64,000 nt of DNA from Clostridia bacterium (GTDB lineage: Bacteria > Bacillota > DAOUPZ01). The stretch is from the NCBI GenBank assembly GCA_030625885.1, contig DAOUPZ010000006.1, forward strand, positions 1-64,000, read 5' to 3'. The translations under genes and the position numbers were made by a program. The number at the start of each line of letters is the position of its first letter. Within the stretch, counting starts at the first letter, position 1. This document shows positions 25,501 to 59,949 of this stretch, piece after piece. The notes beneath the pieces are model-generated. The model was not told where the DNA came from. It ran no database searches and saw nothing but the letters and a program-made list of their open reading frames with translations.

Positions 25501-25796
25501 CAGCAACCCATAAAATTGTTACAGGATATAATGAAAAAGAATTTGCACCGGATGAACCCATTACGAGAGAACAATTGGCAGTGATGATCTATAAGGCAAT
25601 AAAATTAAACCAAGTAAACGATAAAATAGCATTTGAAGATAATGAAAAAATTTCGCAATGGGCAAAAAAAGCTGTAAAAGCTTTAAAAGAAGCAGAAATC
25701 ATTTCAGGATATGAAGATCAAACATTTAAACCTAAGAATAATGCAAGCAGAGCAGAAGCAGTTACAATCATTATGAAAGCATTAAAAAGACAATAA
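16530..25796 (+). CDS. Giant exported multidomain surface protein with three C-terminal SLH domains
   Basis: AATGAGG precedes the ATG. Residues 1-33 are a signal peptide. Domains in order: four InlB-like bacterial repeats (about 380-700; GGGIYNYGEKATLKAEP pattern); PKD (703-787, YEWDFGDGKTGSG); a carboxypeptidase-regulatory-like fold (890-963); Trp-containing propeller-like strands (1387-1757; SIAVWLRDDP, LVATWMNTN); two CARDB domains (1780-1990); Big2 (2000-2080); four DUF5011-like Ig domains (2087-2475); an Fn3-like domain (2478-2577); a cadherin-like domain (2580-2675); a pre-SLH domain; three SLH repeats (2913-3088). It should be a wall-attached adhesin or scaffold. It shares its whole C-terminal half-plan with the 3184-aa protein upstream. 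No catalytic domain was recognised. Confidence 0.92.
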   Translation: MLKQKKKTLTKMLICFLLLPALIMIQVQPLFALGLNAEVNQESINDGEVVEQAELGSESNSTLPILQMDPEEMLLQQNNNENDLNANEVIDDIEGPIDLLEADRTQLSETVPFTSQENTVPQNQFKASSVSNSHQSSAKWQQFCVDDKWYSKTIGWADGYGKNIDDSIIFPSYRTDQSFSYVDYPEDNDKKDMSYYDLLWEWKLKNTSDTYTEKGVNFTTKSGGKINFRKYDKVRVPYNVLQRKDEKNQFSQVIDNYSERIPELYLIASDEKMGDYNSYTYRTAREKTDHPSYFNWVTYMLQEHWYKSEDIDGHTQIQYYNINKSGYLSDTANYGQLVLDIPFPNESYYIRFHAVQKKSTLDRVLFSPPIFRLRQSSITISTEKGGNLTGGGIYNYGEKATLKAEPDTYHTFWKWTSPEDDSFINTDATLSYTVTEVDRNFVAHFKPKNFPVTIKTESSEKGSVRVADASPYKDQVIVNADGSLKINEVQYDSLVEVAAEPNPGYRFDRWEFKSDEGDTYVNTENAVYRVQGVNDQLIAHFVKQQTITVNVSPSVLFGSVAGGGTYDKGTTITLTATPNLGYGFVGWKQTDGTFLTNSEGVTMTDPIITYTVDQDNTLTAVFENTQKEINVISNPSWGGTVTGSGTYNYGERVTITASPRAGYTFLNWAKEGTIFADEKTYSFNADESCTIQGNFQKNSERSGVNTFEHRPFKQFTGEEVAFDASSIFLHEDNEYDYEWDFGDGKTGSGQTITHDYDQSGEYEVKLHIYDQTHRKVETLTDTIEIVAEVSLAESEFEVNPYGIRMVQPGETLSWDIVFYNNGVPMAGKEITIENQLLDKEVKVTTNSEGYAEYKMTVPSDHDTYSLYKVSFLYESLKRETRIQVYNDHVSLTGHVYDRYTGKPLEDAQVIVGSKTTYTDQDGDYFIQGISSGEHTARVVLEHYEVETLDILFNSSQKAQGFSMQRIIPGDQPFITRAFSTCTNTWREEKFYWEEGKNKDLDFTVDIDWKAHEAGSVKYIIGEQEYIVDLTEAADKNRAVYTFDVGDDIPVGEQLKVLAISAHGVESDIVDTGITVRKPLPMRPNTTSLDLFDTKTPPAPDNMPLISAFANSLIAKGVKGSMSYDEVEGIMVFEVNPTKLPLKGSATTLKSIKHTYSDMGFPSRRLNTGGVSVKAGLGTKVVYKYDNDKQEWALDEGWLIVVALANKKFVYYYLTPYGIPIYVSTTFGVDLESITGIEFENNASLISGSIEPDIYARIAGGAGISDAISAEVWGKLLGALKFKFDSDDVHSKSGTDWKIEVSIGYKLVAFLTLAEEELGKHTWKSDGYDEDITKISNLSMPDVQKMKPMGRAYLDKDSEWLGSEKKMIRTLSVDGKNVSEMILQNNIFPYGEPKISMLDNKSIAVWLRDDPARSDMDRTAITYSIYDGNTWSMPEMIHDDQTADFYPQIAQTSEGLVATWMNTNSLIDKDKGISDFMAKSEIAVATYNKEKEEWTEAQNLTFDNQYDNNPQVAAKDHEAMVVWVKNTDEDIPQVGKIDQILYHESSKNNIMVSKWNGISWSSPENICSNAGAIIKSSLAFDGDKAIYAYILDEDASLETTQDQELYVISYSKADRWGHPVRVTNNDITDANPKVHYLNGEPMIFWYEDGKILYIKGLEQDTPDVAIHGEGTSVLSDFELACGQNGSLGIVWGEGLDKEQEIFTAIYDPIYDRWSKGVQVTDNDELNRSIDAVLDDDGNLLVIYNKAATEETDETVIIKDEADLAFSKLKVGKDFAITREDIVLSQENPMPGSTVTITANVSNLGELAEKDIQVALYDGDPSNGGTLIEDIKTITDPLAGGDQLSVSVEWRVPDQFISHEIYVVVDPNYEKSDRDRTNNKVSLGVMKPDLEITQVDTKSLADHKYVITVKWANRGGVPSENTSIVLKKNDENGVEIASKTIGIFKPGQEIENLFTCQLDESDFNEGIAKVILEIDSYQEDFNELNNVREMILNKQQIKTSEKAIEQLILNQSLIRLYEGESESLVETIIPVSASSQNIRWVSEDEKIAAVDDTGKVTGREAGITTIYAETLDGSIKSTMCSVNVAHPASKPTITLKGEETIKIVQGDNFVDPGATAKDGWGNNLDGKINSANQVDASQIGVYKIIYICKDDFNNEADPKIRTVWIVPPKVNITVSENTIHVTDALPLSTLKLYNSKDEIVTSCTLRGTDNGYTFKALPVEETYYVTQTINGVESDISNKVDVDDTIPPVITLNGARDIKTEVKTSYIELGATATDNLDKSLDVNITGSVDINRIGNYPITYKAQDCAGNEAALNRRIQIVDTTSPQIVLNGESVIQIQVGQTYHEPGAVATDNYDDHVDIHMMGTVDTSQAGEYRITYKAADCSNNAAEKIRTIHVLSDITPPVIKVNGEKIIKILKNKAYKDLGATATDNIDGDISKNIMVTGVVNTQKVGDYSISYSITDSSGNSAKEKRTIQVVDKILPVTATKAAADIKSSEGTLKGEIIEVGTLNSTAYGFVWGTNHNPTVEVNEGKIDFGAIAATGVFEYLLTGLKQDTIYYARTYIIHEEGIVYGNEINFRTLSDNTNLSELIVSEGSLDLIFNKDTTNYTVTLENAVEKIKIRPTIEDSKGKIKVNGVIVASGNDSKEIALAVGKNTITVEVTAEDGTGKNYMIDVNRRSKHKSSKKNTIDRRSRIMGTNTNTAYENIIQKSVERKDDNFTEKYSIVDNQDIKKMLKELKESGEAEIEIALETNEDRSIELNIEKDVIQNAKEFGMKISMNDTILEIPQPILETFAQSNENLNIAINQSDTALVEEAMNEFKEVKNAKTKGTPTNIETDLKGNTKLTIPLDGVVMPNDSVERQTLLDQLAVFAIHSDGEKEMIEATIVYDDNHEPIAITFTTDKFSIFAVVQRAGKIEKSMFQDIKGHWAEENIKQLVNDEVINGYLDGTFRPNNQITRAEFVAILMKALDLKNTSSKVFEDTINHWAKAYIDIAATHKIVTGYNEKEFAPDEPITREQLAVMIYKAIKLNQVNDKIAFEDNEKISQWAKKAVKALKEAEIISGYEDQTFKPKNNASRAEAVTIIMKALKRQ

Positions 25797-28273: not shown

Positions 28274-28356
28274 TAATATGGCGAACACATAGCATCCTCA
28301 TCGAATAAAGTAATTATTGAGAAGTTTAATCGTAATACGGAAAGGATGAGGTGGAC

Positions 28357-29766
28357 ATGTCAGTGACTTATAAGGTTTGTATTGATCCTGGACACGGAGG
28401 AGAAGATCGATATAATCGGGGCAAAAATGGCTATGTTGAAGCGGATGGTGTGTTGGATATCTCTCTTAAACTAAGAAATGAGCTTAAGAAATGTGGTTTT
28501 TATGTCTTGCTAACTAGGGAAACGGATAAAACATTGTCGCTTACGGAACGTGCAAGCATTGCTAACAAATGGGGTGCTGACCTGATGATTTCCGAGCATA
28601 GTAATGCAGCTGGATCAGAAACTGCAAAGGGCGTAGAGGTGATACATTCCATATATGGTGGTAAGGGAAAAGAATTTGCGGATATGGTTTATGATGAAAT
28701 GATTAAACTGATGTCTGGAAGAAGGGTATATAGCCGTAAAGGGAAAAATGGTGATTATTATGCTGTTATCCGTAAGACAGATGCACCTTGCGTCATAATT
28801 GAAAGCGGATTCCATACAAATCTTGAGGATGAAAAATTACTACTTAATCCAAATTTTAGAACACAAATTGCAAAGGCACAGGCAAAAGCAGTATGTGAAT
28901 TATTTGGTGTTAAATACATAGATAAAGTTGAGTACGAAAATAAAACTGAGCATTGGGTGGAACCCATTTATAAAGAATTACATGAATTAGGGATCATTAG
29001 TGAAAAACGTTTTGATGACGCTATTACCAGAGGAGAGTATATGGCTGGACTTAAAAAACTATTGGATCTGCTGCAAGGGGAAAGTCATGAGCCAAAAGAA
29101 GAGCCTCAACCTGTACCAAAGCCAAAAGAAGAACCTCAACCGATACTGACTTCAAAAGAAAAGCCTAAATATCGACAAATTGCTGCAACTCATATTTTAG
29201 AAGTAGATCCATTATCACTTACTATTGAAATCGTTAAAAAACCCGGGAATCAGATTCAAGGTGATTTTGTAAATGGTGGATTTTTCGGAACATTAGATGG
29301 GATGATGGTATCTGTTAGTACGTTGGTTTCTGATGGGAAAATACTTGCTGAACAGTTGGCTCATGATGATGTAAAACGTGGTACATTGGTAGTCTATAAA
29401 GATGGTACGACCCAGGTGGAAATGATTGATTTTATCAGTAAACATCCAAAAATAAATGATATCAAATTTGCGGTTAGCGGATTTAATCTCAATCCGCTTG
29501 ATATAAAAGGAGAATGGTTTAATCCCGAGGAAGTAGGCTATTCTACCCAACGCGTTTCAATGGGTTACCATGTTGAAAAGAAAAAGGTTATAATTGCAAT
29601 AAGGAATCATAGTGATGCAGAAAGAGCCGTGTTAACCATGAAGAATTTAGGATGTGATCATGCTATTTGTTTAGATAGCGGGGGAAGTGCCAATGCAAGA
29701 TTTAATGGAAAGTCAATTGTGACAACAGACAGAAAGCTTTATTCGATTATTAGATGGCAGGATTAA
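28357..29766 (+). CDS. N-acetylmuramoyl-L-alanine amidase fused to a phosphodiester glycosidase (NAGPA) domain
   Basis: I choose ATG 28357, 5-6 nt after GATGAGGT; an in-frame GTG at 28351 is inside that site. Residues 1-185 are an Amidase_3 zinc amidase: CIDPGHGG, ISEHSN and the catalytic-Glu box IIESGFHTN. It cuts the MurNAc-L-Ala bond of peptidoglycan. Residues about 200-235 resemble a single weak SLH-like repeat (AITRGEYMAGLKKLL). A Pro/Glu/Lys linker with two PKEEPQP repeats leads to a C-terminal NAGPA/DUF2233 domain (NGGFFGTLDG, CLDSGGSANARF). There is no signal peptide, so export would need lysis, a holin or another route; phage endolysins have this trait. The combination with NAGPA is unusual. 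Confidence 0.85.
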   Translation: MSVTYKVCIDPGHGGEDRYNRGKNGYVEADGVLDISLKLRNELKKCGFYVLLTRETDKTLSLTERASIANKWGADLMISEHSNAAGSETAKGVEVIHSIYGGKGKEFADMVYDEMIKLMSGRRVYSRKGKNGDYYAVIRKTDAPCVIIESGFHTNLEDEKLLLNPNFRTQIAKAQAKAVCELFGVKYIDKVEYENKTEHWVEPIYKELHELGIISEKRFDDAITRGEYMAGLKKLLDLLQGESHEPKEEPQPVPKPKEEPQPILTSKEKPKYRQIAATHILEVDPLSLTIEIVKKPGNQIQGDFVNGGFFGTLDGMMVSVSTLVSDGKILAEQLAHDDVKRGTLVVYKDGTTQVEMIDFISKHPKINDIKFAVSGFNLNPLDIKGEWFNPEEVGYSTQRVSMGYHVEKKKVIIAIRNHSDAERAVLTMKNLGCDHAICLDSGGSANARFNGKSIVTTDRKLYSIIRWQD

Positions 29767-46002: not shown

Positions 46003-46266
46003 ATGAATCAAATGATGGGTGAAATCAAGCTTCTTCCCTATGATGATGTACCGGAGGGCTGGTTGAGATGCCAGGGGTAGGTTTTGCCCATCAACAAGTA
46101 TCCGAAGCTTTATATGCTGATTGGTACAAAATTTGGCAAGGATGGTGAGCTTGGGTTTAAATTGCCCGATTTAACCGAAGCATCACCGCAAAGTCTGGAT
46201 TATTGTATAGCAACAAAAGGGGAAGTACCCGAAATTCATAGTGAAAGTGAGGCGGATATGGGATGA
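46003..46266 (+). pseudogene. Mini phage-tail-collar protein, copy 1, broken by a nonsense codon
   Basis: AGGAGG lies 10 nt before the ATG. The frame reads MNQMMGEIKLLPYDDVPEGW, LRCQG, then TAG at 46078-46080, then VLPINKYPKLYMLIGTKFG and KLPDLTEASPQSLDYC to a TGA at 46264. The intact copy 2 has a Gln codon at the TAG, so a single C-to-T change (CAG to TAG) explains it. An internal start at 46084 could make only the last 60 residues. Its stop overlaps the start of the next gene (ATGA). Readthrough or suppression is possible but nothing shows it. Confidence 0.8.
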
Positions 46267-49079
46267 GAAAGGTTGGAATGATGAAAAATAAAATAAGTTG
46301 TATCGTCATAATGCTTCTTGTATTAATTAACTTGGTTTCAGGAGGCGTTAAGGAGGCATCAGCGGCTGTTTATATCACGGTGGAATCAAAGGCAAAGGGG
46401 GATATTATTACATTTGCAGACAGGCAATGGATTATATTAGAACCTGCTAACGGGTTAATCATTTTAAGGGATAATGATGGAAATAGAGTATGGCATTCCG
46501 AACAATACGGGAATTATGAATTCAGTTCGATAAGAGCGTATCTTAATGGTGAATTTTTGAATAAATTAGGAGATGAAAACAAAAGTGTTATTCGCGATTG
46601 GACTTGGAATTGTGGTCCTGAAATTGATGAAGATAGAGAAAGCGTTACAGATAAAGTAGGATTACTGACACGCAACGAATATTTTAAACATTATTCTCAG
46701 TATGTTCCACAGAGTTTCAATTGGTGGTTAATGACCATCTGCTTAAATGGTAAAGCGTTTTATGCCCCTAATCTGTATACGAGCGCTTTAAACGTTTCTG
46801 ACATAGGTGTGCGTCCCTGTTTGCATTTCAAGCCTGGGACATTAATAAATCGTTTTACTAATGAAGTGGTAGGTGTAGAGGAAGCAAAAATTCCTGATGT
46901 AGATACGTTTTCACTGGTAGAAGGTTTAACCGCTACTACTGCTGAGGTAGGAGGCGCGGTAATTTCTGACGGCGGTGATGCTTCTACTGAAAGAGGTATT
47001 GTATATGCCACCCATGTTGATCCTATCACGTCAGATAATAAAGTCACGGATGTGGGAAAAGGGACCGGTACATTTACTGCAACATTAAAAGATCTTAAGC
47101 CGGGTACAACCTACTATTTCAGTGCATATGCGACCAATGCATATGTAACCTATTACGGTAAAAGTATATCCTTCACTACATCTAAACTGAATAACTTGAC
47201 TCTAAACGGCGTTGTTATCCCCAATCTTACGGTGGGAGAAGCAGGATACGATCTTACCAAACTAAACCTGGCAGGCAGTGATCAGTATGGCAATCCCTAT
47301 GATATTACAGGACAATCAATCATCTGGACGGTGACTTCGGGCGGCGAGTATGCTCGCTTGAATGGAGAAGGAACGGCCACATCTGTCCAGTTATTTCATC
47401 CTGGAGGCGTAGCGACAGACAGCAGCGGCAATGTATATATAGCAGATTGTGAAAACCACCGGATCCGGAAGGTTGACATGAATGGCATGATCAGCACGGT
47501 GGCAGGAAATGGAAGCGGCGGTTATTCCGGCGATGGCGGAATGGCCACATCTGCTCAACTATTTTGTCCCTATGGCGTGGCGATAGACAGCAGCGGCAAT
47601 CTGTATATTGCGGATTATGGAAACCATCGGATCCGGAAGGTTGATGCGAATGGTATGATCAGTACAGTGGCAGGAAATGGAAGCGGCGGTTATTCCGGAG
47701 ATGGCGGAGTGGCAACGTCTGCCCAGTTATGGTTTCCTGAACGCGTGGCGATAGACAGCAGCGATAATATATATATTGTGGATTCGATTAACCACCGGAT
47801 ACGGAAGGTTGATGCGAATGGTATGATCAGTACAGTGGCAGGAAATGGAAGTGGTGGTTATTCCGGAGATGGCGGAGCGGCAGTGTCTGCCCAGTTATTT
47901 TATCCTGAAGGTGTGGCGATAGACAGCAGGGGCAATGTATATATAGCAGATAGTGAAAACCACCGGATACGGAAGGTTGATACAAATGGTATGATCAGTA
48001 CAGTGGCAGGAAATGGAAGCGGCGGTTATTCCGGGGATGGCGGATCGGCTACATCTGCTCAACTAAATCATCCCTATGACGTGGCAACAGACAGCAGCAA
48101 CAATCTGTATATAGCAGATGGTTTTAACAACCGGATACGGAAGGTTGACACGAATGGTAATATCAGCACAGTAGCCGGAGATGGAAGCGAAGGTTACTTG
48201 GGAGATGGCGGAGCGGCCACATTCGCTCAACTACAAGTTCCCTATGGCGTGGCGATAGACAGCAGCGGCAATCTGTATATAGCGGATTGTGTTAACAACC
48301 GGATACGCAAAGTTGACCTCAGCGGAAATATCGATACAGTAGCAGGTACAGGCATTAAAGGCAGTGGCGGCGGAAACATTTTAGATCCTGTTAGTGCGGG
48401 TTTGGGTACAGTGACCGCTGCTATTAACGACTTTATCAGTGAACCGGTGAGCTTTACTGTTGATGCTGCAGGAGGTGCTGTTACCATCAATACCTGCAGG
48501 CTGCCAGCAGGTATTATCAATAAGTCTTACAGTGGTTCGCTTCAGGCTAGCGGCGGAACGGCTCCATACACGTGGGATGTTACCGGATTGCCGGCGGAAT
48601 TTAACACAAACATAGTTGGGAGCACATGCGAGATTACCGGTACGCTGGATGGAAAATGGAGTGATATTGTGACCGTAACCGTCACTGATAATAAGGGTGC
48701 CTCGGCAATAAAGACCCTTAGTTTAATCATAGACGAAAAATGCGGCAACGGCGGTTATCTTGTCCTTCCGGATACCGGTTTGGCGGATGCCGGCTTTACG
48801 CCTGACGGCATCCGAACGATGACGGTAAAAGACGGCATCTCCGGCTTTAAATACGTTTCCGTCAACATTCACCCGGTGACCGGACATAGCGGTGATGAGG
48901 TCGCAGTATTTGTGCATCTGCGTGACGGCGTGCAGGTGGGATTTTCAGCTAACAGAGCTGATTTTGATGTTACAAATAATGCACAGGCCGCTTTTAACGT
49001 ACGACCCGGGGATATCATCAAGGTTTATCTGGTTGACAGCCTGAGTAACGACGATAATAGCAACCCGACTTTGTTATAG
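46263..49079 (+). CDS. Exported DUF6273 / Fn3-like / NHL-propeller / Ig protein with shared C-terminal module
   Basis: I list the ATG that overlaps the collar stop (ATGA). ATG 46281, behind AAAGG, is an equal candidate and starts a cleaner signal peptide (MKNKISCIVIMLLVLINLVS, cut after EASA). Domains: DUF6273-like (about 36-200; GDIITFADRQWIILEP); Fn3-like (about 213-300); the first half of a Big-type Ig domain; six NHL repeats of 56 residues (NHRIRKVDANGMISTVAGNG), expected to fold as a six-bladed propeller; the second half of the Ig domain (ILDPVSAGLGTVTA); a putative-Ig (He_PIG-like) domain (APYTWDVTGLPAEF); and a C-terminal module of about 110 residues shared with the 640-aa protein. There is no SLH, LPXTG or C-terminal helix. 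Confidence 0.88.
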   Translation: MRKVGMMKNKISCIVIMLLVLINLVSGGVKEASAAVYITVESKAKGDIITFADRQWIILEPANGLIILRDNDGNRVWHSEQYGNYEFSSIRAYLNGEFLNKLGDENKSVIRDWTWNCGPEIDEDRESVTDKVGLLTRNEYFKHYSQYVPQSFNWWLMTICLNGKAFYAPNLYTSALNVSDIGVRPCLHFKPGTLINRFTNEVVGVEEAKIPDVDTFSLVEGLTATTAEVGGAVISDGGDASTERGIVYATHVDPITSDNKVTDVGKGTGTFTATLKDLKPGTTYYFSAYATNAYVTYYGKSISFTTSKLNNLTLNGVVIPNLTVGEAGYDLTKLNLAGSDQYGNPYDITGQSIIWTVTSGGEYARLNGEGTATSVQLFHPGGVATDSSGNVYIADCENHRIRKVDMNGMISTVAGNGSGGYSGDGGMATSAQLFCPYGVAIDSSGNLYIADYGNHRIRKVDANGMISTVAGNGSGGYSGDGGVATSAQLWFPERVAIDSSDNIYIVDSINHRIRKVDANGMISTVAGNGSGGYSGDGGAAVSAQLFYPEGVAIDSRGNVYIADSENHRIRKVDTNGMISTVAGNGSGGYSGDGGSATSAQLNHPYDVATDSSNNLYIADGFNNRIRKVDTNGNISTVAGDGSEGYLGDGGAATFAQLQVPYGVAIDSSGNLYIADCVNNRIRKVDLSGNIDTVAGTGIKGSGGGNILDPVSAGLGTVTAAINDFISEPVSFTVDAAGGAVTINTCRLPAGIINKSYSGSLQASGGTAPYTWDVTGLPAEFNTNIVGSTCEITGTLDGKWSDIVTVTVTDNKGASAIKTLSLIIDEKCGNGGYLVLPDTGLADAGFTPDGIRTMTVKDGISGFKYVSVNIHPVTGHSGDEVAVFVHLRDGVQVGFSANRADFDVTNNAQAAFNVRPGDIIKVYLVDSLSNDDNSNPTLL
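47370..48372. repeat. Six tandem 168-bp repeats encoding NHL blades
   Basis: Units of 56 codons repeat in register; copies 1 to 4 are nearly identical over GTGGCAGGAAATGGAAGCGG and neighbouring bases, while copies 5 and 6 have diverged. Such DNA can gain or lose blades by recombination. Confidence 0.8.
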
Positions 49080-49080
49080 G

Positions 49081-49339
49081 AGGGGACAGGAATTTTAATA
49101 TACTGCTTAATCCGGAAACGATTAAGGCGGGGAATGATTATATTATGATTTGTGATGAAGACGGCAACAATGTAAAGATTGATGTTACCTATGACATTGA
49201 GGAAAACACGATCACCATCACACCGCAGAGCAGTTATAATCTGGCAAACCAATATTATCTGTTCATCGGAATTGGGATTGAATCGCCAAATGGAAAGCAG
49301 CTAAAAGAACCGATTAGAATGATGTTTGATGTAAAGTAA
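49081..49339 (+). pseudogene. Orphan SbsA/Big_5-type Ig domain fragment
   Basis: Directly after the stop of the previous gene, another frame encodes NPETIKAGNDYIMICDEDG and then IDVTYDIEENTITITPQSSY, ending FDVK and a stop. This resembles a bacterial Big_5/SbsA Ig domain (the YDxxxxTITLTP pattern). There is no start at its beginning; an ATG at 49145 would give only 64 residues. It looks like the tail of a longer surface protein replaced upstream by recombination. Confidence 0.5.
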
Positions 49340-49469: not shown

Positions 49470-50396
49470 ATGCATAGACATCCGCTGATGAAACCGATTG
49501 TCGATTTTGTGTTCAAGCAAATCTTTGCCAGTGATAAAAAAGAAAGCAGAATTGTCCTGATGGATCTGCTCAATGCTATCTTAGGGCTTAAGGAAGAAGA
49601 GAAAATAACAGAGATTATTTATCTTAATCCATACAATGATAAAGCGTATGAAGATGATAAGATATCAATCATGGATGTAAAAGTAAAAACGCAAAAGGAT
49701 GAGGTCATAGATATAGAAGTACAAATCAATAATAAAGATAATTACCGCAAAAGAACACTCTACTATTGGTCGAAAATGTACGGGGAAACCATTGAAAAAG
49801 GTAAAGCTTATGAAACGTTAAAGAAATGTATTGTAGTGAATATACTGGATTTTAATCTTTTGCAAGAAACGAAAAAATATCACAGTAAATTCAGGGTAAA
49901 GGAAATCGCAGAAAATTTTGAACTGCTGGATGATTTAGAAATACAATATATCGAGCTGCCTAAATTCAATGATACTAAACATATCGAAGATATGGGGCAA
50001 TTAGAACACTGGTTGGTGTTTATTAAAGATGCGGGCAATGAAGATAAGGAAAAATTGGTTAATGAAGTAAGGACTAAAAGCGAGGTGATTGATATGGCAG
50101 GTAAAATGCTGGAAGTTTTAAGCCAGGATGAAAAAGCAAGGCAAGCATATTATCAACGTGAAAAGTGGCTTTTAGATGAAAAATCAAAAGTAGAATATGC
50201 CAAAATACTGCAAGAAAGAGCACGAGAAGAAGGAGTAAAGCAAGGAATAGAGCAAGGTAAATTAGAAGAGAAAATAGCAATGGCTAAGAAATTGCTGCTT
50301 GCTGGAATGGATGAAACAATAATTATGGAAGTTTCAGGACTATCAAGAGAAGAATTACTAGAATTGCAACGGAAGGGGACGACTGCAGATAAATAA
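49470..50396 (+). CDS. Rpn-family recombination-promoting nuclease / PD-(D/E)XK transposase-like protein
   Basis: AAGGAG precedes the ATG. The start MKPIVDFVFKQIFASDKKES, the middle IMDVKVKTQKDEVIDIEVQ (Asp, then E-x-Q of the PD-(D/E)XK core) and YWSKMYGETIEKG are typical of the Rpn/YhgA-like group. The end is a charged coiled helix (GVKQGIEQGKLEEKIAMAKK), also typical. These are DNA nucleases that promote recA-independent recombination, and many genomes carry multiple copies. It sits between the two copies of the 415-bp duplication. Confidence 0.9.
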   Translation: MHRHPLMKPIVDFVFKQIFASDKKESRIVLMDLLNAILGLKEEEKITEIIYLNPYNDKAYEDDKISIMDVKVKTQKDEVIDIEVQINNKDNYRKRTLYYWSKMYGETIEKGKAYETLKKCIVVNILDFNLLQETKKYHSKFRVKEIAENFELLDDLEIQYIELPKFNDTKHIEDMGQLEHWLVFIKDAGNEDKEKLVNEVRTKSEVIDMAGKMLEVLSQDEKARQAYYQREKWLLDEKSKVEYAKILQERAREEGVKQGIEQGKLEEKIAMAKKLLLAGMDETIIMEVSGLSREELLELQRKGTTADK

Positions 50397-50605: not shown

Positions 50606-50869
50606 ATGAATCAAATGATCGGTGAAATCAAGCTTCTTCCCTATGATGATGTACCGGAGGGCTTTCTTAGATGCAAGGGGCAGGCTTTGCCAATCAACAA
50701 ATATCCGAAGCTTTATATGTTGATTGGTACAAAATTTGGCAAGGATGGTGCGTTTGGGTTTAAATTGCCCGATTTAACTGAAGCATCACCGCAAAGTCTG
50801 GTCTATTGTATGGCAACACAAGGGGAAGTGCCCGAAATTCATGGTGAAAGTGAGGCGGATATGGGATGA
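50606..50869 (+). CDS. Mini phage-tail-collar (microcystin-dependent-protein-like) protein, intact copy
   Basis: AGGAGG lies 8-10 nt before the ATG. The 87 residues read MNQMIGEIKLLPYDDVPEGF, LRCKGQALPIN, LYMLIGTKFGKDG and FKLPDLTEASPQS. This is the tail-collar pattern (GEI..P.GWL.C.GQ.LPI..Y..L..LIGT..G.DG...F.LPDL). The C-terminal YCMATQGEVP corresponds to the YCIALQGIFP end of longer family members, so the usual middle part is absent. Collar proteins are found in phage tails and tail-like particles. No other tail gene is present here. The stop overlaps the start of the exported beta-helix protein, implying coupled translation. Confidence 0.8.
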   Translation: MNQMIGEIKLLPYDDVPEGFLRCKGQALPINKYPKLYMLIGTKFGKDGAFGFKLPDLTEASPQSLVYCMATQGEVPEIHGESEADMG

Positions 50870-52788
50870 GAAAGGGAGGGAGAAAAGTGTATCATATTTC
50901 AAGAAAAGCAATGGCGTTAATCCTGGTATTTCTAATGACAGTCGGTGTATTGCCGGGGTTGTTTGCGGTTGGAGGAAGCACGGCATATGCGGCAGGTACG
51001 GATATTTATGTTTCAGCCGGGGGTGCTGATAATGGCGACGGCAGCCAGGGTAACCCCTATAAGACCATCCAGGCGGGAATTGATGCTGTACCTGATGATA
51101 GTACTGTCAATGGTACCGTTGTTCATGTAGCAGCAGATATATACAAAGAACATCTGAACATCGGGAAAAATGTGACCCTGCTTGGTGAAGGTGAAAATAG
51201 TACCATTATCGATGGTAACCAATCCGGCAGAGTCATTGAAATAGCTGCAGGCTGCGAAGTGAAGATCACCGGCTTTACAATTACAAACGGGAAAGCACCT
51301 GATGGCGGTGACGGTGATCTTTACTTTGCTGGCGGTGCTGGTGGTGCTGGCGGCGGGATTTGCAACTCTGGGACAGTAACGATAACCAGCTGTACCATAA
51401 CAGGCAACAGTGCAGGAGATGGCGGTCATGGCGGTCGTGTCGGTAGTGGCGGTGATGGCGGTGCTGGCGGCGGGATTTGCAACTCTGGGACAGTAACGAT
51501 AACCAGCTGTACCATAACAGGCAACAGTGCAGGAAATGGCGGTCATGGTGGTCGTGGCGTTCGTGGCGGTTATGGAGGTGATGGTGGTGATGGCGGTGCT
51601 GGCGGTGGGATTTGCAACTCTGGGACAGTAACGATAACCAGCTGTACCATAACAGGCAACAGTGCAGGAAATGGGGGTCATGGCGGTGATGGCGGGGATG
51701 AATGTCATGGCGGTGCTGGCGGTGCTGGCGGTGCTGGCGGCGGGATTTGCAACTCTGGGACATCTGGGACAGTAACCATAACCGGCTGTACCATAACCGG
51801 CAACAGTGCAGGAGCCAGCGGTGCTGATGGTGCTGGCGGTGATGCCTTTGTTGGCGGTATAGCCTATAATGGCGGTGATGGGGGTGCTGGCGGTGCTGGC
51901 GGCGGGATTTGCAACTCTGGGACAGTAACCATAACCGGCTGTACCATAACTGGCAACAGTGCAGGTACTGGCGGTACTGGCGGTACTGGCGGTGATGGCG
52001 ATTATGGTGGTTATGGCGGTGATGGGGGTGCTGGCGGTGCTGGCGGCGGGATTTACAGTAAAAATGGCAGTGTGGATGCAACAAATAACTGGTGGGGTAC
52101 GATCTATGATCCAACAAGCATAAGCATAGTTAATGGTTCAGTGATTGTTGATCCCTGGCTTCTGGAAAAACCTTCGGCAGCAGCTCCTGTAACCATTACC
52201 ACTGACAACCTTCCTGCCGGCATTGTGGGAGAGGTATACAGCTTCTCGCTGCAGATCAGCGGCGGCAATGCTCCGTACACATGGCAAATTTCCGGATTGC
52301 CGGATGGTTTGAGCATGGACACTGCTGCCGGTGAAATAACAGGTACATCCGCTGTAAAAGGAAGTTATTCTGTATCTGTCACAGTTACTGACACTGATGG
52401 AAGTACAGACAGTAAGACATATACCCTGGTGTTGGATGAGAGCTGCGGCAACGGCAAGTATCTGGTTATCCCTGTTACTGACGACACCAATTATACAACC
52501 AGCTTTACTAATGACGATATCCCAATGATGACGGTAAAAAGCGGCATTTCAGGCCTGAAGTATTTTTCTGTCAACATCTGCCCGGTGACCGGACACAGCG
52601 GTGATGAGACAGCAGTATTTGTCCATATGCGAGGTGAGCTGCAGGTGGGATTTTCAGCGGTAAGGGCTGATTTTGATGAGATGCATAGTGCCCAGGCAGC
52701 TTTTAATATTCAGGAAGGCGATATAATCAAGGTCTTTCTTTTTGACAATCTGAACAATAACAATGACAGTAATCCTGTTTTGCTGTAG
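50866..52788 (+). CDS. Exported glycine-rich beta-helix protein with Ig domain and shared C-terminal module
   Basis: The listed ATG overlaps the collar stop; GTG 50887 behind GGGAGGGAG is a strong alternative. A signal peptide ends near STAYA. A DUF1565/Pbl-type start (DIYVSAGGADNGDGSQGNPY) leads into a right-handed beta-helix. Five repeats of GGGICNSGTVTITSCTITGN alternate with Gly-Ala-Asp-rich spacers of different length (GGDGGAGG type), and a last turn reads GGGIYSKNG..NNWWG. A putative-Ig domain (APYTWQISGLPDGL) and the roughly 110-residue C-terminal module (GNGKYLVIPV to SNPVLL) follow. The module also ends the 938-aa protein. It is likely a surface or secreted adhesin; no enzyme site was seen. 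Confidence 0.88.
   Translation: MRKGGRKVYHISRKAMALILVFLMTVGVLPGLFAVGGSTAYAAGTDIYVSAGGADNGDGSQGNPYKTIQAGIDAVPDDSTVNGTVVHVAADIYKEHLNIGKNVTLLGEGENSTIIDGNQSGRVIEIAAGCEVKITGFTITNGKAPDGGDGDLYFAGGAGGAGGGICNSGTVTITSCTITGNSAGDGGHGGRVGSGGDGGAGGGICNSGTVTITSCTITGNSAGNGGHGGRGVRGGYGGDGGDGGAGGGICNSGTVTITSCTITGNSAGNGGHGGDGGDECHGGAGGAGGAGGGICNSGTSGTVTITGCTITGNSAGASGADGAGGDAFVGGIAYNGGDGGAGGAGGGICNSGTVTITGCTITGNSAGTGGTGGTGGDGDYGGYGGDGGAGGAGGGIYSKNGSVDATNNWWGTIYDPTSISIVNGSVIVDPWLLEKPSAAAPVTITTDNLPAGIVGEVYSFSLQISGGNAPYTWQISGLPDGLSMDTAAGEITGTSAVKGSYSVSVTVTDTDGSTDSKTYTLVLDESCGNGKYLVIPVTDDTNYTTSFTNDDIPMMTVKSGISGLKYFSVNICPVTGHSGDETAVFVHMRGELQVGFSAVRADFDEMHSAQAAFNIQEGDIIKVFLFDNLNNNNDSNPVLL
51330..52060. repeat. Imperfect tandem repeats with variable glycine-rich spacers
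   Basis: A unit of about 70 bp beginning GGCGGGATTTGCAACTCTGG recurs near 51350, 51470, 51602, 51742 and 51901. Between units lie GGCGGT-rich spacers of different lengths. Unit 4 has an extra ACATCTGGG. The repeats lie inside the 640-aa reading frame. Confidence 0.8.
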
Positions 52789-52800
52789 GGGGGAACTAAA

Positions 52801-55800
52801 ATGAATAAAAAATTCTGTATTATTATTTGCATTCTCTGTTTCTTTTTTGCAGGAAATGTATCGGCTCTGGGTAATGCGGTCACGCTGTCCATAAATCCGG
52901 ATCATGCTGCTCCGGGAGATAGTGTAACTTTGTCAGGAACAGCAGATGGCAATATCTTTGTGACCATTAAGGTTGTAGGCGGTAATGGGGATATTCTATT
53001 CCTCAACCCGGTAAAATCAGATGACAGTGGTGATTACAGTGATTCCTTCATCGTGCCGTCGGATGTGCCTCTCGGTGTTTTGAGTGTAATTGCCGGGTAT
53101 GGTGAAAATGTGGCTGCTGCAGAACTTAATATTGCAAACGCACTGACGGGAACGGCAGCCATATCCGGGAATGCCGTGTTTGGGGAGACATTAACAGCAG
53201 TATTGGAAGGCAGCAACAATACCGGAACGCTGTCTTACCAGTGGATGCGAGGTGACGAGGATATAGCAGGAGCAACAGACGCAGCCTACACTCTTGGTCA
53301 AGTGGATATAGGAAAAACAATCAGTGTAAAGATTGCGAGCAGTGCAGAGGCGGGAACTCTAACGAGTGCTCCAACTGCATCTGTAGATAATATTGATCCT
53401 GCTGCAGTATTTGTAAGCGGCGGCATCGGTACGGAAGCCGATCCGTACCGGATTGCTTCAGCAGCGGAGCTTGAATGTTTAGCACAGCTTGTAAACTCTG
53501 GCGCAACAGATACAGTAAACAACGACGGTAAGAAATATGCCAGTCTGTATTACAGGTTTGATGACAATATCGACCTGGGCGGAGTTCAATGGACACCGAT
53601 TGGGGCTGATTCGACTAACAGTTTTACGGGAACATTAGACGGAAACGGCAAGGTCGTGTCAAACCTGACGATCGGCATTTCAGAGGAAAGCCCGGAATCA
53701 ACCCTTTTCTATGTTGGGCTGTTCGGTTATACAACCGGGGCGACGATACAGAATGTTGGCGCAGAGGCGGCAGCTATCTATTCATATAATCTCAATACTG
53801 ACCGTACTGTTTATGCAGGCGGTCTTGCGGGATATGCCGAGTCGGGTACAACCATCACAGAATGTTATGTGACAGGTGCTGTGTCAGGGGACTCCGACGA
53901 TCGGAGCGTGGCAGGCGGACTTGTGGGATATATCGATTCCAGTTCAACAATCGCAGATTGCTATACGACATGCTGTGTGTCAGGCTTTTCCGACGCTTGC
54001 AGCTATGTGGGCGGTCTTGTGGGATATTTACAGGAGGGTACAATTACAAACAGCTATGCAACAGGCAGTGTGGGTAGTGATCAATATGCGGGCGGTCTTG
54101 TGGGAACGGTTGAAAATGGCACAATTATAAACAGCTACGCGACAGGCAGTGTGTCGAGCGGTGATTATGCAGGCGGCCTTGCGGGATTTGTTTATAATGG
54201 CACTGTTACAAACAGCCACGCGACAGGCAATGTAGAAGGCCTTCAATTTACGGGAGGTCTTGCGGGACAGGTTAATAATGGTACAGTTACAAACAGCTAC
54301 GCGACAGGCAATGTGGTCAGCGGCGAATTTGCGGGTGGTTTTATAGGAAGTGTTAATTATTGCACAACAATTACAAACAACTATGCAACAGGCAATGTGG
54401 AAGGCCATGACTACGTACAACTAGGGAGCAATTACTATGGAACAGGTGGCTTTGCGGGATCAACCTATGATAGCAATATAACCTATGGTTATTGGAACAC
54501 CTCTGCTGTAAGCAGGGGCGTAGGTTCCGGCACGGATACAACCATCGGAAAAACTCGGGAGGAAATGGCAGATCCGAGTTTTATTAAATTCTTAAACGAT
54601 GAAGTAAATAATTTAAACGATAATTTGCTTAAAAAATGGAAGCCTGTTTGCGGAGAAAATGATGGCTATCCCATGTTGAACGGATTGGGCAACACCGAAG
54701 AGAGCAATCTGGCACCGATAGCTGTTAATACCGCTATATCCGGATTAGCTCATTCGGGGCAGACTCTGATCGGCTCTTATACATTTTATGATGTTGAAGG
54801 GGATACCGAGGTGGGTACGATACTTAAGTGGTACCGCGCGAATGATTCAAGCGGAACCGATGCTCTGGCGATACCCGGTGCGACAGGCAGCACATATACT
54901 CCGACGGATGCTGACGTGGGATATAACATCTGCTTTGAGGTAACGCCTTCAGACGGCAATAAAGCAGGTGCGGGTTATAAGAGTGGCTATACCTGCAAGG
55001 TGCTGTCATCTGAAGCGTGGGATGGGATAGCTGCCACAGAATTTGCAGACGGGAGCGGAACGGAAGCTGACCCGTATCAGATTTCCTCAGCAGCCGAGCT
55101 GGCATATTTAGCACAGCTCGTTAACTCCAGCGCAGCAGATACAGCAAACAACAACGGCGAGAAATATGCCAGCCTGTACTATGAGCTTACCGACTATATC
55201 CAGTTAGGATACAGTTCATGGATTCCTATCGGAACAAGCAGCGCTGACAGTTTTACGGGAACACTTGATGGAAACGGCAAGGTCATATCAAATCTGACGA
55301 TCGGTACGGCCGAAAATCCCGATACAACACATGCTTATGCGGGTCTTTTTGGATATACAAGTGGAGCGACAATACAGAATGTGGGTGTAGAGGATGCGGC
55401 TATCTATTCTTACATAGCCGGCACCAATAATATTGCAGGCAGTCTCGTGGGATGGGCATCTGGTGATACAATTACAAACTGCTTTACAACAGGTATAATA
55501 TCCATTGGAACCGGTGGAGGCTATAATGCAGCAGGCGGTCTTGTTGGATATGCACTAGAGAACTCGTCGATTACCAATAGTTACGCAGCAGTCAACATTT
55601 CAGGCAGTGGCAGCACAACCTATGCGGGCGGTTTTGCAGGGATAACGCAGTCAGGCTCATCAACCTCCAACTGCTATGCGATAGGTAATGTGATGAGTGA
55701 CAGTGATACGGCTAATGTGGGTGGTCTTGTAGGAACAGTATGGAGCAACTCCGGCACCATATCAAATGGGTACTGGAACAGCTCTGCTGCAAGCAATGGT

Positions 55801-58800
55801 GTAGGTTCCGGCACGGATGATACGACCAGCATGGAAGCAGCTGATATGAAGAATACTTCATTTGTAACGACCCTTAATTCAAATGTTATGGCATTGATGG
55901 CTGTGAATGATTCGCTGCGGCTTAAGACATGGAAATTTGCCGCAGACAAAAACAACGGTTATCCAATGATTAATGGCATTGGTAATACCGTGACCAATAC
56001 AGCAGCACCAACGGCAACCCATGTCGTTATATCCGGATTGGCTCATTCGGGGCAGATGCTTGCAACTGCTTATGATTATTGTGATCTGGACGGAGAGGCC
56101 GAGTCAGGTACTACCTATAAATGGTATCGTGCCAGTGATGCAAGCGGAACAGATTCTGTGGTTATATCTGGCGCAACGGGAAATACTTATACTTTGACGG
56201 ACGGTGATGTGGGATATTACATCTGCTTTGAGGTAACGCCTGCTAACAGCGGGGGTGCAGGAGCGTCTGTAAAAAGCATATATACGTCCAAGGTGCTGTC
56301 ATCTGAAACATGGGACGGGACCACAATTGCCACAGAATTTGCAGGCGGGAGCGGAACGGAAGCTGCCCCGTATCAGATTTCCTCAGCAGCGGAGCTTGTA
56401 TATTTAGCACAGCTTGTAAACTCCGGCGCAATAGATACAGCAAACAACGACGAAAAATACGCCGTCTTGAACTATGAGCTTACGGACTATATCAAATTGG
56501 GATACAGTTCATGGACTCCTATTGGAACAAGCAGTGCTAACAGTTTTACGGGAACATTCGATGGAAACAGCAAGGTCATAGCAAATCTGACGATCGGTAC
56601 GGCAGAAAGTCCCGATACAACACATGCTTATGCGGGTCTTTTCGGATATACAAGCGGGGCGACAATACAGAATGTGGGTGTAGAGGATGCAGCTATCTAT
56701 TCTGACATAGCCGGCACCAATAACATGGCAGGCGGTCTTGTGGGATGGACATTTTGTGATACAATTACAAACTGCTTTGCAACAGGTACTATATCGGTAG
56801 CGACAGGCGGCAGCTATAACGCAGCAGGTGGTCTTGCAGGATATGCAGTAGAGAACTCGTCGATTACCAATAGTTACGCAGCAGTCAACATTTCAGGCAG
56901 TGGCAGCACAACCTATGCGGGCGGTCTTGCCGGGATAACGCAGTCAGGCTCAGCAATCACCAACAGCTATGCAGTGGGCAATGTGACGAGTGATAGTGGC
57001 ACTGCTAATATGGGTGGGCTTTTGGGAGCTGCTTTAAGCGGTTCCGGCTCAATCACAAACTGTTACGCGACAGGCAGCGTATCAGGCGGCGACAGTGCTT
57101 TGAAAGGTGGATTTGCAGGAAAATTCACCGCCGGTTCCATAGATCACTGCTATTGGAACAGCTCTGTTGCAAGCCAAGGTGTAGGTTCCGGCACGGATGA
57201 TACGACCGGAATGACCGCAGATGAAATGAAAAGCTATTCTTTTGCAGAAGACCTTAATGAAGAGGTCATTGAATTAAACAAGACTCATCCTGAAATTCTG
57301 CGGGGATGGGAACTGGTTACAGACAAAAACGACGGCTATCCGATGCTCAACGGAGTTCGTCCTGTAAATGCTTTAACTGGAAATGTAATTTTATTATTTA
57401 ACATTGATAGTGAGAACGGTACAATAACAGGCTATCGAAACGTGGAAAACACATATAACGTGACCGGCGGCCTGAAAATACCCGATACAGTAAACGGTGT
57501 TACAGTAACGAAGATAGGTGACTGGGTATTTACAGAGTGCGAATTTCTTGCGAACGTCATAATACCGGATAGTGTCACGAGTATAGGAGAAGCTACGTTT
57601 GCTAATTGTGGTTCCCTTGCGAGCGTAACAATACAGGGCGGTGTTGTGAGCATAGGAATGGGAGCGTTTGCTGATTGCCGTTCCCTTGAAAGTGTAACAA
57701 TACAGGGCAGTAACCTGAGTATAGGTGACATCGCGTTTGCGGGCTGCGGGTTCCTTACAAGTGCATATTTTGAGGGTGATGCACCGGCTTCTTTCGGCAA
57801 TGATGTTTTTAAAGATTCTGCGGAGGGCTTTACAATATATTACCCCTCAGATGCGAAAGGCTGGGAAGAAAATCCGTGGCATGGTTATCCAACTTCAGCT
57901 TATACGGCAGAACCTTCACAAGATACAGAAATATTAAGTGCTAAGGCAATAACTGATGTATCAGTATTAACTAATGATGGTAAAACATTGGCTGAAATTA
58001 AAAACGCGTTGGGGAATACAGTAGTGTTAATAGCAGAAGGTGATGAGACCGTAAATGTACCAGTAACCTGGGGAGATAATACTGAACCGGAATATAACAA
58101 TGGAGCAGTTAACACCTATGTATTAACAGGAACAATCGGGCAATTACCTGATGGCTATAAAGATGAAACAGATACAGTAACCGAAGTAACAGTTAATATA
58201 GTTGTAGCAGATGCACCGGTAAACGCATTGATAGGAACGGCAACCATAACCGGTAATGCAGTATTTGATGAAACATTAACAGCTGTATTAAATAACGGAA
58301 ACAATACTGGAACGCTATCGTATCAGTGGACACGAGAAGGTATAGATATAGCAGAGGCAACAAACGAATTCTACACACTCGTGCAGGAAGACATAGGGAC
58401 ACAAATAGGCGTAACGATTTCAAGCAGTGTGGAATCAGGCAGCGTCACAAGTACTTCTACAGCAGCAGTAGAAAAAGCAGACTGTGAAACAGCTGCAGGA
58501 TCAACGCCTGTATTAGAAAGTAAAACCCATAATAGTGTTACACTAGTTGCTGTGGATGGCTATGAATACACAAAAGTTGCAGATGGCACTAATGTATCGG
58601 AAGCACCCTGGCAGGACAGCAATGAATTTAATAGCTTAACTGCTGAAACAGACTATGATTGCTATCAGAGAGTAAAAGAAACAGCCACGCATAAAGCTTC
58701 AACGGTAAGTGAAAAGTTGGATGTTACAACAGATGCAGAACCAGCACTAGTTTTAAGTACAGTTATAGTAAGCGGCAGCATACCAGAATTAACGGTAGAT

Positions 58801-59949
58801 GGTGAAGGTTATGATTTAAACCAGCTGACATTAAGCGGACAGGATCAAAATGGTAACTCGTATGACATTAGCGGTTTAAGCATAAGCTGGCAAATAGCCG
58901 CTGGGAGTGATTATGCAACGCTAAGCGGCAGCATTTTAACACCTGCAAATGAAGGAGTTGGAACAGTTACAGCAACAGTAGGTGACATCATCAGTAATAT
59001 TGTAAACTTTACAGTTACAGCAGCATTAATACCATCCATAGAAGGGGTGATATTAAACACAAATACCCATGAAGTGGGATCAGACCAGCAGGTTGAAATA
59101 AGTATAACCTGTCAGATCGTTGCAGATGGCACTAATGTAATCGCATCACTGGTTGATAATGATGGCAACAAACTAAATCCAGAGATGATTGTCAGTCAGG
59201 TTATTAACAATAATCATGCAACTGTATTCCTTAATATTCAATCAGGAATACCAGTAGGTGAATATAAAATAAAGGTAAAAGTTGAGGGTATTGAGGACGC
59301 ATATCTTACAGCTTATCAAATAACGGAAAAGCTGGCAACACCACTGGTTGGCTTAAGTATTATGAAGGGCAGCGATGGTAATGGTGAAGAAATGGTTAAA
59401 GACTATAATCCTACTCATACAGATTATAGGTATGCAGTTGAATATAATGTAGAGGAAGTTAAAGCTTTCATAACAGCAGCACCTGATACAACAACCAGAA
59501 TATATCAAGATAATAATGAAGTGACAGATGGCACTTTCAATTTAGTTATTGGGCAGAATAACATTACGATCGTTGTAAGTGAAGCAGGGCTAGCAGATCG
59601 AATCTATCATATCGGGATAACCCGTATGAAACTAGATGAATGCTTTATTGCAACGGCAGCCTATGGCTCAAAATTTGAGCCGTCAGTAAAAATGTTACGG
59701 CAGTTCAGGGATAAGTATTTACTCACTACTGCGACCGGTAAATCATTTGTCGCATTCTACTACAGAAATTCACCGCCAATAGCGAAGTTTATTGGGGGTA
59801 ATCAATTCTTGAAATTAGTGACACGCTTATTGCTTTGTCCATTTATTCTCTTAGTGTATCTGGTTTTTCATCCGGTACTAGGTGCTTTAGTTATTGGGAG
59901 TGTGTTAATAATGCTGATATATTGCAGAAGAAGGTTCATATGTAGCTAA
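52801..59949 (+). CDS. Giant exported GLUG/LRR/Ig surface protein with CFI-box C-terminus
   Basis: AGGGGGG precedes the ATG, 12 nt after the previous stop, so it is probably co-transcribed. A signal peptide spans residues 1-23. Three blocks begin with GTEADPYRIASAAELECLAQ-like sequence; block 1 carries GLUG repeats (GGLVG..NGTITNSYATG). LRR_5/BspA-like repeats lie at about 1546-1664. A Big_4-like domain, Ig domains (113-198 and 1808-1892), an Fn3-like region, an intact Big domain (1984-2075) and a cadherin-like domain (2180-2275) follow. The C-terminus starts CFIATAAYGS and runs FRDKYLLTTATGKSF...YYRNSPP, the CFI-box, then hydrophobic helices (about 2342-2374). It is probably anchored in the membrane rather than by SLH. 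Confidence 0.9.
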   Translation: MNKKFCIIICILCFFFAGNVSALGNAVTLSINPDHAAPGDSVTLSGTADGNIFVTIKVVGGNGDILFLNPVKSDDSGDYSDSFIVPSDVPLGVLSVIAGYGENVAAAELNIANALTGTAAISGNAVFGETLTAVLEGSNNTGTLSYQWMRGDEDIAGATDAAYTLGQVDIGKTISVKIASSAEAGTLTSAPTASVDNIDPAAVFVSGGIGTEADPYRIASAAELECLAQLVNSGATDTVNNDGKKYASLYYRFDDNIDLGGVQWTPIGADSTNSFTGTLDGNGKVVSNLTIGISEESPESTLFYVGLFGYTTGATIQNVGAEAAAIYSYNLNTDRTVYAGGLAGYAESGTTITECYVTGAVSGDSDDRSVAGGLVGYIDSSSTIADCYTTCCVSGFSDACSYVGGLVGYLQEGTITNSYATGSVGSDQYAGGLVGTVENGTIINSYATGSVSSGDYAGGLAGFVYNGTVTNSHATGNVEGLQFTGGLAGQVNNGTVTNSYATGNVVSGEFAGGFIGSVNYCTTITNNYATGNVEGHDYVQLGSNYYGTGGFAGSTYDSNITYGYWNTSAVSRGVGSGTDTTIGKTREEMADPSFIKFLNDEVNNLNDNLLKKWKPVCGENDGYPMLNGLGNTEESNLAPIAVNTAISGLAHSGQTLIGSYTFYDVEGDTEVGTILKWYRANDSSGTDALAIPGATGSTYTPTDADVGYNICFEVTPSDGNKAGAGYKSGYTCKVLSSEAWDGIAATEFADGSGTEADPYQISSAAELAYLAQLVNSSAADTANNNGEKYASLYYELTDYIQLGYSSWIPIGTSSADSFTGTLDGNGKVISNLTIGTAENPDTTHAYAGLFGYTSGATIQNVGVEDAAIYSYIAGTNNIAGSLVGWASGDTITNCFTTGIISIGTGGGYNAAGGLVGYALENSSITNSYAAVNISGSGSTTYAGGFAGITQSGSSTSNCYAIGNVMSDSDTANVGGLVGTVWSNSGTISNGYWNSSAASNGVGSGTDDTTSMEAADMKNTSFVTTLNSNVMALMAVNDSLRLKTWKFAADKNNGYPMINGIGNTVTNTAAPTATHVVISGLAHSGQMLATAYDYCDLDGEAESGTTYKWYRASDASGTDSVVISGATGNTYTLTDGDVGYYICFEVTPANSGGAGASVKSIYTSKVLSSETWDGTTIATEFAGGSGTEAAPYQISSAAELVYLAQLVNSGAIDTANNDEKYAVLNYELTDYIKLGYSSWTPIGTSSANSFTGTFDGNSKVIANLTIGTAESPDTTHAYAGLFGYTSGATIQNVGVEDAAIYSDIAGTNNMAGGLVGWTFCDTITNCFATGTISVATGGSYNAAGGLAGYAVENSSITNSYAAVNISGSGSTTYAGGLAGITQSGSAITNSYAVGNVTSDSGTANMGGLLGAALSGSGSITNCYATGSVSGGDSALKGGFAGKFTAGSIDHCYWNSSVASQGVGSGTDDTTGMTADEMKSYSFAEDLNEEVIELNKTHPEILRGWELVTDKNDGYPMLNGVRPVNALTGNVILLFNIDSENGTITGYRNVENTYNVTGGLKIPDTVNGVTVTKIGDWVFTECEFLANVIIPDSVTSIGEATFANCGSLASVTIQGGVVSIGMGAFADCRSLESVTIQGSNLSIGDIAFAGCGFLTSAYFEGDAPASFGNDVFKDSAEGFTIYYPSDAKGWEENPWHGYPTSAYTAEPSQDTEILSAKAITDVSVLTNDGKTLAEIKNALGNTVVLIAEGDETVNVPVTWGDNTEPEYNNGAVNTYVLTGTIGQLPDGYKDETDTVTEVTVNIVVADAPVNALIGTATITGNAVFDETLTAVLNNGNNTGTLSYQWTREGIDIAEATNEFYTLVQEDIGTQIGVTISSSVESGSVTSTSTAAVEKADCETAAGSTPVLESKTHNSVTLVAVDGYEYTKVADGTNVSEAPWQDSNEFNSLTAETDYDCYQRVKETATHKASTVSEKLDVTTDAEPALVLSTVIVSGSIPELTVDGEGYDLNQLTLSGQDQNGNSYDISGLSISWQIAAGSDYATLSGSILTPANEGVGTVTATVGDIISNIVNFTVTAALIPSIEGVILNTNTHEVGSDQQVEISITCQIVADGTNVIASLVDNDGNKLNPEMIVSQVINNNHATVFLNIQSGIPVGEYKIKVKVEGIEDAYLTAYQITEKLATPLVGLSIMKGSDGNGEEMVKDYNPTHTDYRYAVEYNVEEVKAFITAAPDTTTRIYQDNNEVTDGTFNLVIGQNNITIVVSEAGLADRIYHIGITRMKLDECFIATAAYGSKFEPSVKMLRQFRDKYLLTTATGKSFVAFYYRNSPPIAKFIGGNQFLKLVTRLLLCPFILLVYLVFHPVLGALVIGSVLIMLIYCRRRFICS
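55020..57000. repeat. Long direct repeat, offset about 1293 bp
   Basis: Blocks 2 and 3 of the giant protein are alike at the DNA level, for example GATACAACACATGCTTATGC at 55321 and 56614, and the stretch around AACTCGTCGATTACCAATAG in both. Each copy spans roughly 620 to 950 bp. They look like an internal duplication by unequal recombination. Confidence 0.7.

Follow-up and report, generated by a model that had tools for sequence, protein, structure and literature searches.

Does the 938-aa protein encoded in the window (the whole 64,000-nucleotide stretch of the Clostridia bacterium contig analysed here) carry an NHL propeller inside an Ig-like domain, and if so, where might such an arrangement have come from and what might it do? 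The features that we discuss below are as follows.

46263..49079, + strand: ORF of the 938-aa protein, in the order of DUF6273, FN3-like, split Big[NHL], He_PIG and C-terminal domain
47181..47366, + strand: host Big domain, first half (residues 307-368; last letters EYARLNG)
47367..48374, + strand: insert of six 56-aa NHL repeats, predicted six-bladed propeller (residues 369-704; exactly 6 x 168 nt)
48375..48476, + strand: host Big domain, second half (residues 705-738; first letters NILDPVSAGLGTVTA)
48480..48737, + strand: He_PIG Ig-like domain directly after the split Big domain (Pfam PF05345; 24.5 bits vs the cut-off of 24)
50866-52788, + strand: ORF of the 640-aa protein
52801-59949, + strand: ORF of the 2382-aa protein
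58753..59025, + strand: uninterrupted Big paralogue within the 2382-aa protein

The 938-aa and 2382-aa ORFs match their description in an earlier sequence-only reading of the window. The former protein begins with a hydrophobic signal-like segment and is thus predicted to be secreted, and the three genes for modular secreted proteins (938 aa, 640 aa and 2382 aa) lie close to each other. The final 237 residues of the 938-aa protein (48480-49079, +) comprise He_PIG and a C-terminal domain bearing no Pfam name, end with NPTLL, and are repeated in the 640-aa protein (53% identity; 74% over 298 bases in DNA). Past the stop codon of the 938-aa gene, a truncated Big_5 (SbsA-like) Ig domain was found at 49060-49339 (+; PF13205, 1.5e-5) in a different frame; it retains the C-terminal three quarters, lacks the first part and is a gene remnant. 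This fragment raised the suspicion of a frameshift at the end of the 938-aa gene, which we judge unlikely because the neighbouring 640-aa protein terminates alike (NPVLL-stop). G+C rises from ~0.40 to 0.50 between the host domain and the end of the ORF (47200-49080) and is 0.38-0.40 beyond; as this step starts upstream of the insert, it is no marker of the insertion itself. Between the modular surface-protein genes lies a gene for a transposase of the PD-(D/E)XK nuclease family (49470-50396, +; PF12784, 6e-68), which might be linked to module shuffling at the locus. The 2382-aa protein comprises GLUG repeats, a BspA-type LRR, AIR9-like Ig domains, a cadherin-like domain and a CFI-box C-terminal domain. 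Elsewhere in the window, two proteins of >3000 aa (1459-11013 and 16530-25796, both +) bear SLH domains together with Ig-like or other beta-sandwich modules and are probably S-layer-attached surface proteins, and the gene at 28351-29766 (+) encodes an N-acetylmuramoyl-L-alanine amidase fused to an NAGPA-type phosphodiester glycosidase domain.

The interrupted Big-type domain

We trained an HMM on ten intact domains, all from other genomes, with both window proteins excluded. This model found two collinear matches in the 938-aa protein, namely model positions 6-69 at residues 304-368 (59 bits, 1.9e-20) and 69-101 at residues 704-736 (21.9 bits, 6.2e-9), and a single continuous match (model 5-102) in the intact domain of the 2382-aa protein. 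Residues 307-738 thus comprise a Big-type Ig domain broken between G368 and N705 by 336 residues, and the reading frame is unbroken across both junctions. With the insert omitted, the split and intact domains align at 53% identity with a single gap, and the conserved pattern of W, DQ.GN, G.GTVTA and FTV is kept in the halves. The sequence-only reading had described a Big domain split into halves in perfect register, as well as an uninterrupted Big domain in the 2382-aa protein; both descriptions were borne out by the foreign-domain HMM, the former also by the pairwise alignment, and its coordinates are right within a few bases (Big domain at 47181-48476, insert at 47367-48374).

Two observations would suit a mis-segmentation, in which the segment following the propeller is an unrelated strand-rich linker resembling the C-terminal half of a Big domain by chance: the second half spans just 34 residues, and the HMM also gave weak Big-like matches at other places in the 938-aa protein (0.0 and -0.2 bits). 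We regard such a coincidence as scarcely credible, as the match of the second half starts at the model position where the first half ends, its score against the intact half is 87 while 5000 shuffles reached 47 at most, and blastp also recovered it (3.8e-5). The result of the foreign-domain HMM already contradicts a chance resemblance.

Neither of the two Big domains reached a Pfam cut-off. The nearest model was Big_1 for the intact domain (0.012; 16.1 bits vs 34.9), and the rejoined split domain matched neither Big_1 nor Big_2. The name 'Big' is therefore based on the sequence pattern, together with weak profile matches to solved Big_2-like chains, among which the best E value is 7e-5. The host domain is Big-like, of a family that Pfam has not modelled. 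A more distant Big relative (L012, L013 and similar loci) was found in many Bacillota, where ~950-aa proteins mostly match it in part (model 24-81).

The profile alignments place the insertion point at a turn of the solved Big_2-like chains, in patterns such as ASVNN-SGLVTA. The turn in patterns of this type is that of a beta-hairpin in Big_2 domains, and one homologue (L020) has a 5-residue insertion at the same turn. A hairpin turn juxtaposes the two ends of an insert, a geometry that a closed propeller can meet. The earlier assignment of the propeller to a loop of the host Ig-like domain is thus supported, and the loop can be specified as a hairpin turn.

The NHL insert

The insert of 1008 bases has a 168-base period and contains exactly 6.0 units (6 x 56 = 336 residues). 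Pfam NHL (PF01436) matched it in 6 stretches (1.4e-42; 142 bits vs the cut-off of 20), confirming the six NHL repeats that had been noticed between the Big halves, and TEN_NHL (PF25021) matched with 2.3e-56 (192 bits vs the cut-off of 27). Units 1-4 are 79-86% identical to one another in DNA, and units 5-6 are 66-79% identical to the rest. This pattern would fit blades having been amplified at a later stage, which has been described as a way for new propellers to arise (PMC6805158). As tandem amplification preserves an integral count, the six whole units require no special explanation.

Repeats are known to cause misjoins, and the arrangement comes from a single genome in 39 contigs; an NHL array misjoined into a Big gene during assembly therefore deserves consideration. 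We find such a chimera very improbable, as the frame is preserved at both junctions, the contig spans 125.6 kb, the repeat units differ by 14-34% and are therefore assemblable, and a search of the source genome with the insert detected no second NHL array that could have been the misjoin partner.

The inserted propeller starts with strand 1 of blade 1, and the TVAG strand at its own C-terminus closes the last blade. In the stand-alone NHL propellers examined from other Bacillota (L025, L027, L029, L031, L032 and L034), a TVAG-type strand comes first and an IRK-type strand last, so that the N-terminal strand presumably closes the last blade. Four of these propellers (L025, L027, L029 and L032), which sit between intact domains, are up to 67% identical to the insert. 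Both ends of the insert therefore fall at the linker phase of an NHL array, and it is circularly shifted by one strand compared to these relatives. We also considered a homologous crossover at the left junction, where WTVTSGGEYARLNG resembles the repeat linker STVAGNGSGGYSGDGG. This candidate was rejected because the split domain resembles the linker no more than the intact domains do. The two junctions share microhomology of 4 bases only.

In Foldseek, NHL propellers ranked at the top, led by NHLRC2 and a bacterial teneurin-like protein (PDB 9ifo; 2.7e-30, phmmer 3e-85, 49% identity). The insert is thus akin to the NHL propellers of the teneurin type. In contrast to teneurins, no other teneurin domain (YD shell or associated) was found by the Pfam scan of the 938-aa protein, and its propeller resides within an Ig domain.

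Predicted structure and probable packing of the two halves

AlphaFold2 was run with a 7-row alignment, the rows of which included intact Big domains that run across the gap and so favour packing of the halves. The MAFFT alignments A8 and A10 put the second half wrongly and were left out of folding. The resultant model (mean pLDDT of 88.5 and pTM of 0.76) comprises a complete propeller of 24 strands (6 x 4; model residues 76-390), flanked by host strands both before (5-11, 31-36, 50-55 and 60-62) and after the insert (402-405, 409-417 and 425-430). Low confidence is confined to the two linkers (65-70 and 393-399), the sole stretches below 50. Without the alignment, AlphaFold2 still built the propeller as 6 x 4 strands and did not build the Big halves (pLDDT of about 25-35). 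The insert is thus modelled as a closed toroid of six blades with four strands each. As the alignment aids the host domain in the model, we take the packing of the two halves into one Ig fold as likely.

If the NHL insertion had broken the Big fold, the two halves would be relics and the propeller an ordinary chain link between the FN3-like and He_PIG domains. The failure of AlphaFold2 to build a Big fold without the alignment fits this scenario, as do the decayed Big_5 fragment past the stop codon, which can be seen as debris at the locus, and the finding of a single example. We nevertheless consider it unlikely that the halves are relics, because a broken domain should drift, whereas the conserved pattern is kept and the identity to the intact copy amounts to 53%; in addition, AlphaFold2 with the alignment modelled the halves at confidence of about 75-90.

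Altogether, the 938-aa protein probably possesses a nested-domain (split Ig) architecture, in which the propeller is held in the Big hairpin and branches off sideways from the rod with a face free for a ligand. The hairpin turn of the Big-type beta-sandwich would carry the entire six-bladed NHL propeller via two flexible linkers of ~10 residues each. The Ig domain would shut around the two linkers and remain aligned with its neighbours (FN3-like upstream and He_PIG downstream). As the domain would close in this way and stay in the chain, the propeller would be a side-branch off the rod, not a link in the chain, and its exposed face would be left open for binding a glycan, a peptide or matrix. 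We infer the packing of the halves, the lateral projection and the ligand binding from the lines of evidence above and from the analogy with adhesins described below, by which the propeller is most likely a laterally presented binding head.

Distribution, origin and counterparts among adhesins

The source genome possesses one split and one intact copy of the Big domain. Among the 45 other genomes of the phylum that have the domain, no split was found, and the matches listed all cross the insertion point without a long gap. Homologues with other inserts at the same loop, which the sequence-only reading had proposed to look for, did not turn up in these 45 genomes; no long insert was detected there, the 5-residue insertion in L020 being the only one at this loop. 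A query joining NHL and Big, run against 399 genomes of the phylum, retrieved NHL proteins, with both flanks matched in the 938-aa protein only. No NHL propeller was found in other Ig domains, as the NHL relatives examined sit between intact domains. Plasmid and phage searches yielded NHL matches, none of which had full coverage of both Big flanks (the plasmid matches were judged on coverage alone), and a scan of viral contigs with the junction gave no match. With one example in the genomes searched, there is no evolutionary conservation to show that the arrangement is functional.

The neighbouring intact domain had been regarded as the preserved ancestral form. By distribution, the unsplit state is indeed ancestral for the family. 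The part of the claim that makes the neighbouring copy the direct precursor is not supported. The split domain is 53% identical to that copy and 49-52% identical to the intact copies in Desulfosporosinus and others, no DNA-level match was found between the split and intact Big domains, and the pair was joined in 17% of bootstrap trees, a value that signifies absence of support and no proof of distance since an alignment of about 90 columns has little resolving power. Descent of the split domain directly from its neighbour is thus without support, and the intact copy is a paralogue in a differently built protein (2382 aa), no closer than the copies of other families.

The most economical account of the origin is that NHL DNA was captured at the linker phase, and that blades were amplified in tandem, which set or reset the copy number.

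RTX adhesins are known to project ligand-binding modules from split Ig-like domains, in which the binding site is at the far end and both termini are on one side, and the split Ig has been used as a sign of ligand-binding domains (PMC12077191, PMC10865825). The payloads described are sugar-binding, PA14, peptide-binding and RTX-roll domains, as well as a vWFA domain out of an RTX roll (PMC12077191, PMC10865825). As in the Gram-negative RTX adhesins (FrhA of Vibrio cholerae, MpIBP and AhLap of Aeromonas hydrophila), in which an Ig-like or BIg-like beta-sandwich is discontinuous and a second complete domain buds off, the sequence of the Ig-like domain in the 938-aa protein is interrupted by an entire domain and resumes behind it, with HMM halves of 6-69 and 69-101 and with host strands flanking the insert in the model. 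By analogy, we infer that the arrangement may work like the split Ig-like domain of these adhesins. In contrast to the Gram-negative RTX giants, the host is a 938-aa protein of Bacillota with an NHL propeller as the payload. No RTX nonapeptide repeat or long tandem extender array was found in the Pfam scan of the 938-aa protein, and its Ig-like modules are single-copy; it is not an RTX adhesin. The word 'propeller' does not occur in a text search of PMC12077191 and PMC10865825, and the open literature searched (subscription journals being outside its scope) yielded no split Ig domain with a propeller as its payload. A split Ig projecting a binding module is already known; what is new here is the NHL propeller payload, in a Bacillota protein without RTX features.

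Integrins present a comparable inserted-domain arrangement in unrelated proteins and with an unrelated payload, e.g., the ligand-binding beta-I domain nested in a loop of the extracellular Ig-like hybrid domain. The solved extracellular propeller of PknD was among the phmmer and Foldseek matches of the insert. This surface protein of M. tuberculosis has been linked to central nervous system disease, with laminin mentioned, in an excerpt of PMC3322341, so that a binding head made of a propeller is not without parallel.

Unlike the split domains of RTX adhesins, the host domain here is ~50% identical to intact homologues, and the unsplit state is visible. We tentatively entertain the possibility that a split Ig domain has been caught near its origin, with a propeller taken up into, and perhaps enlarged one blade at a time within, the hairpin of a Big domain that is still ~50% identical to its unsplit relatives; it would then be a Bacillota counterpart, independently arisen, of the split domain of RTX adhesins.

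Split Ig domains in RTX adhesins are hard to recognise by homology (PMC10865825), and the transition from a continuous to a split domain is therefore hard to study. As both the source genome and other Bacillota offer an unsplit form with ~50% identity, one could directly measure how well a bacterial Ig domain tolerates a large insertion. Gram-positive surface proteins are worth searching for split Ig domains, which homology searches may miss.
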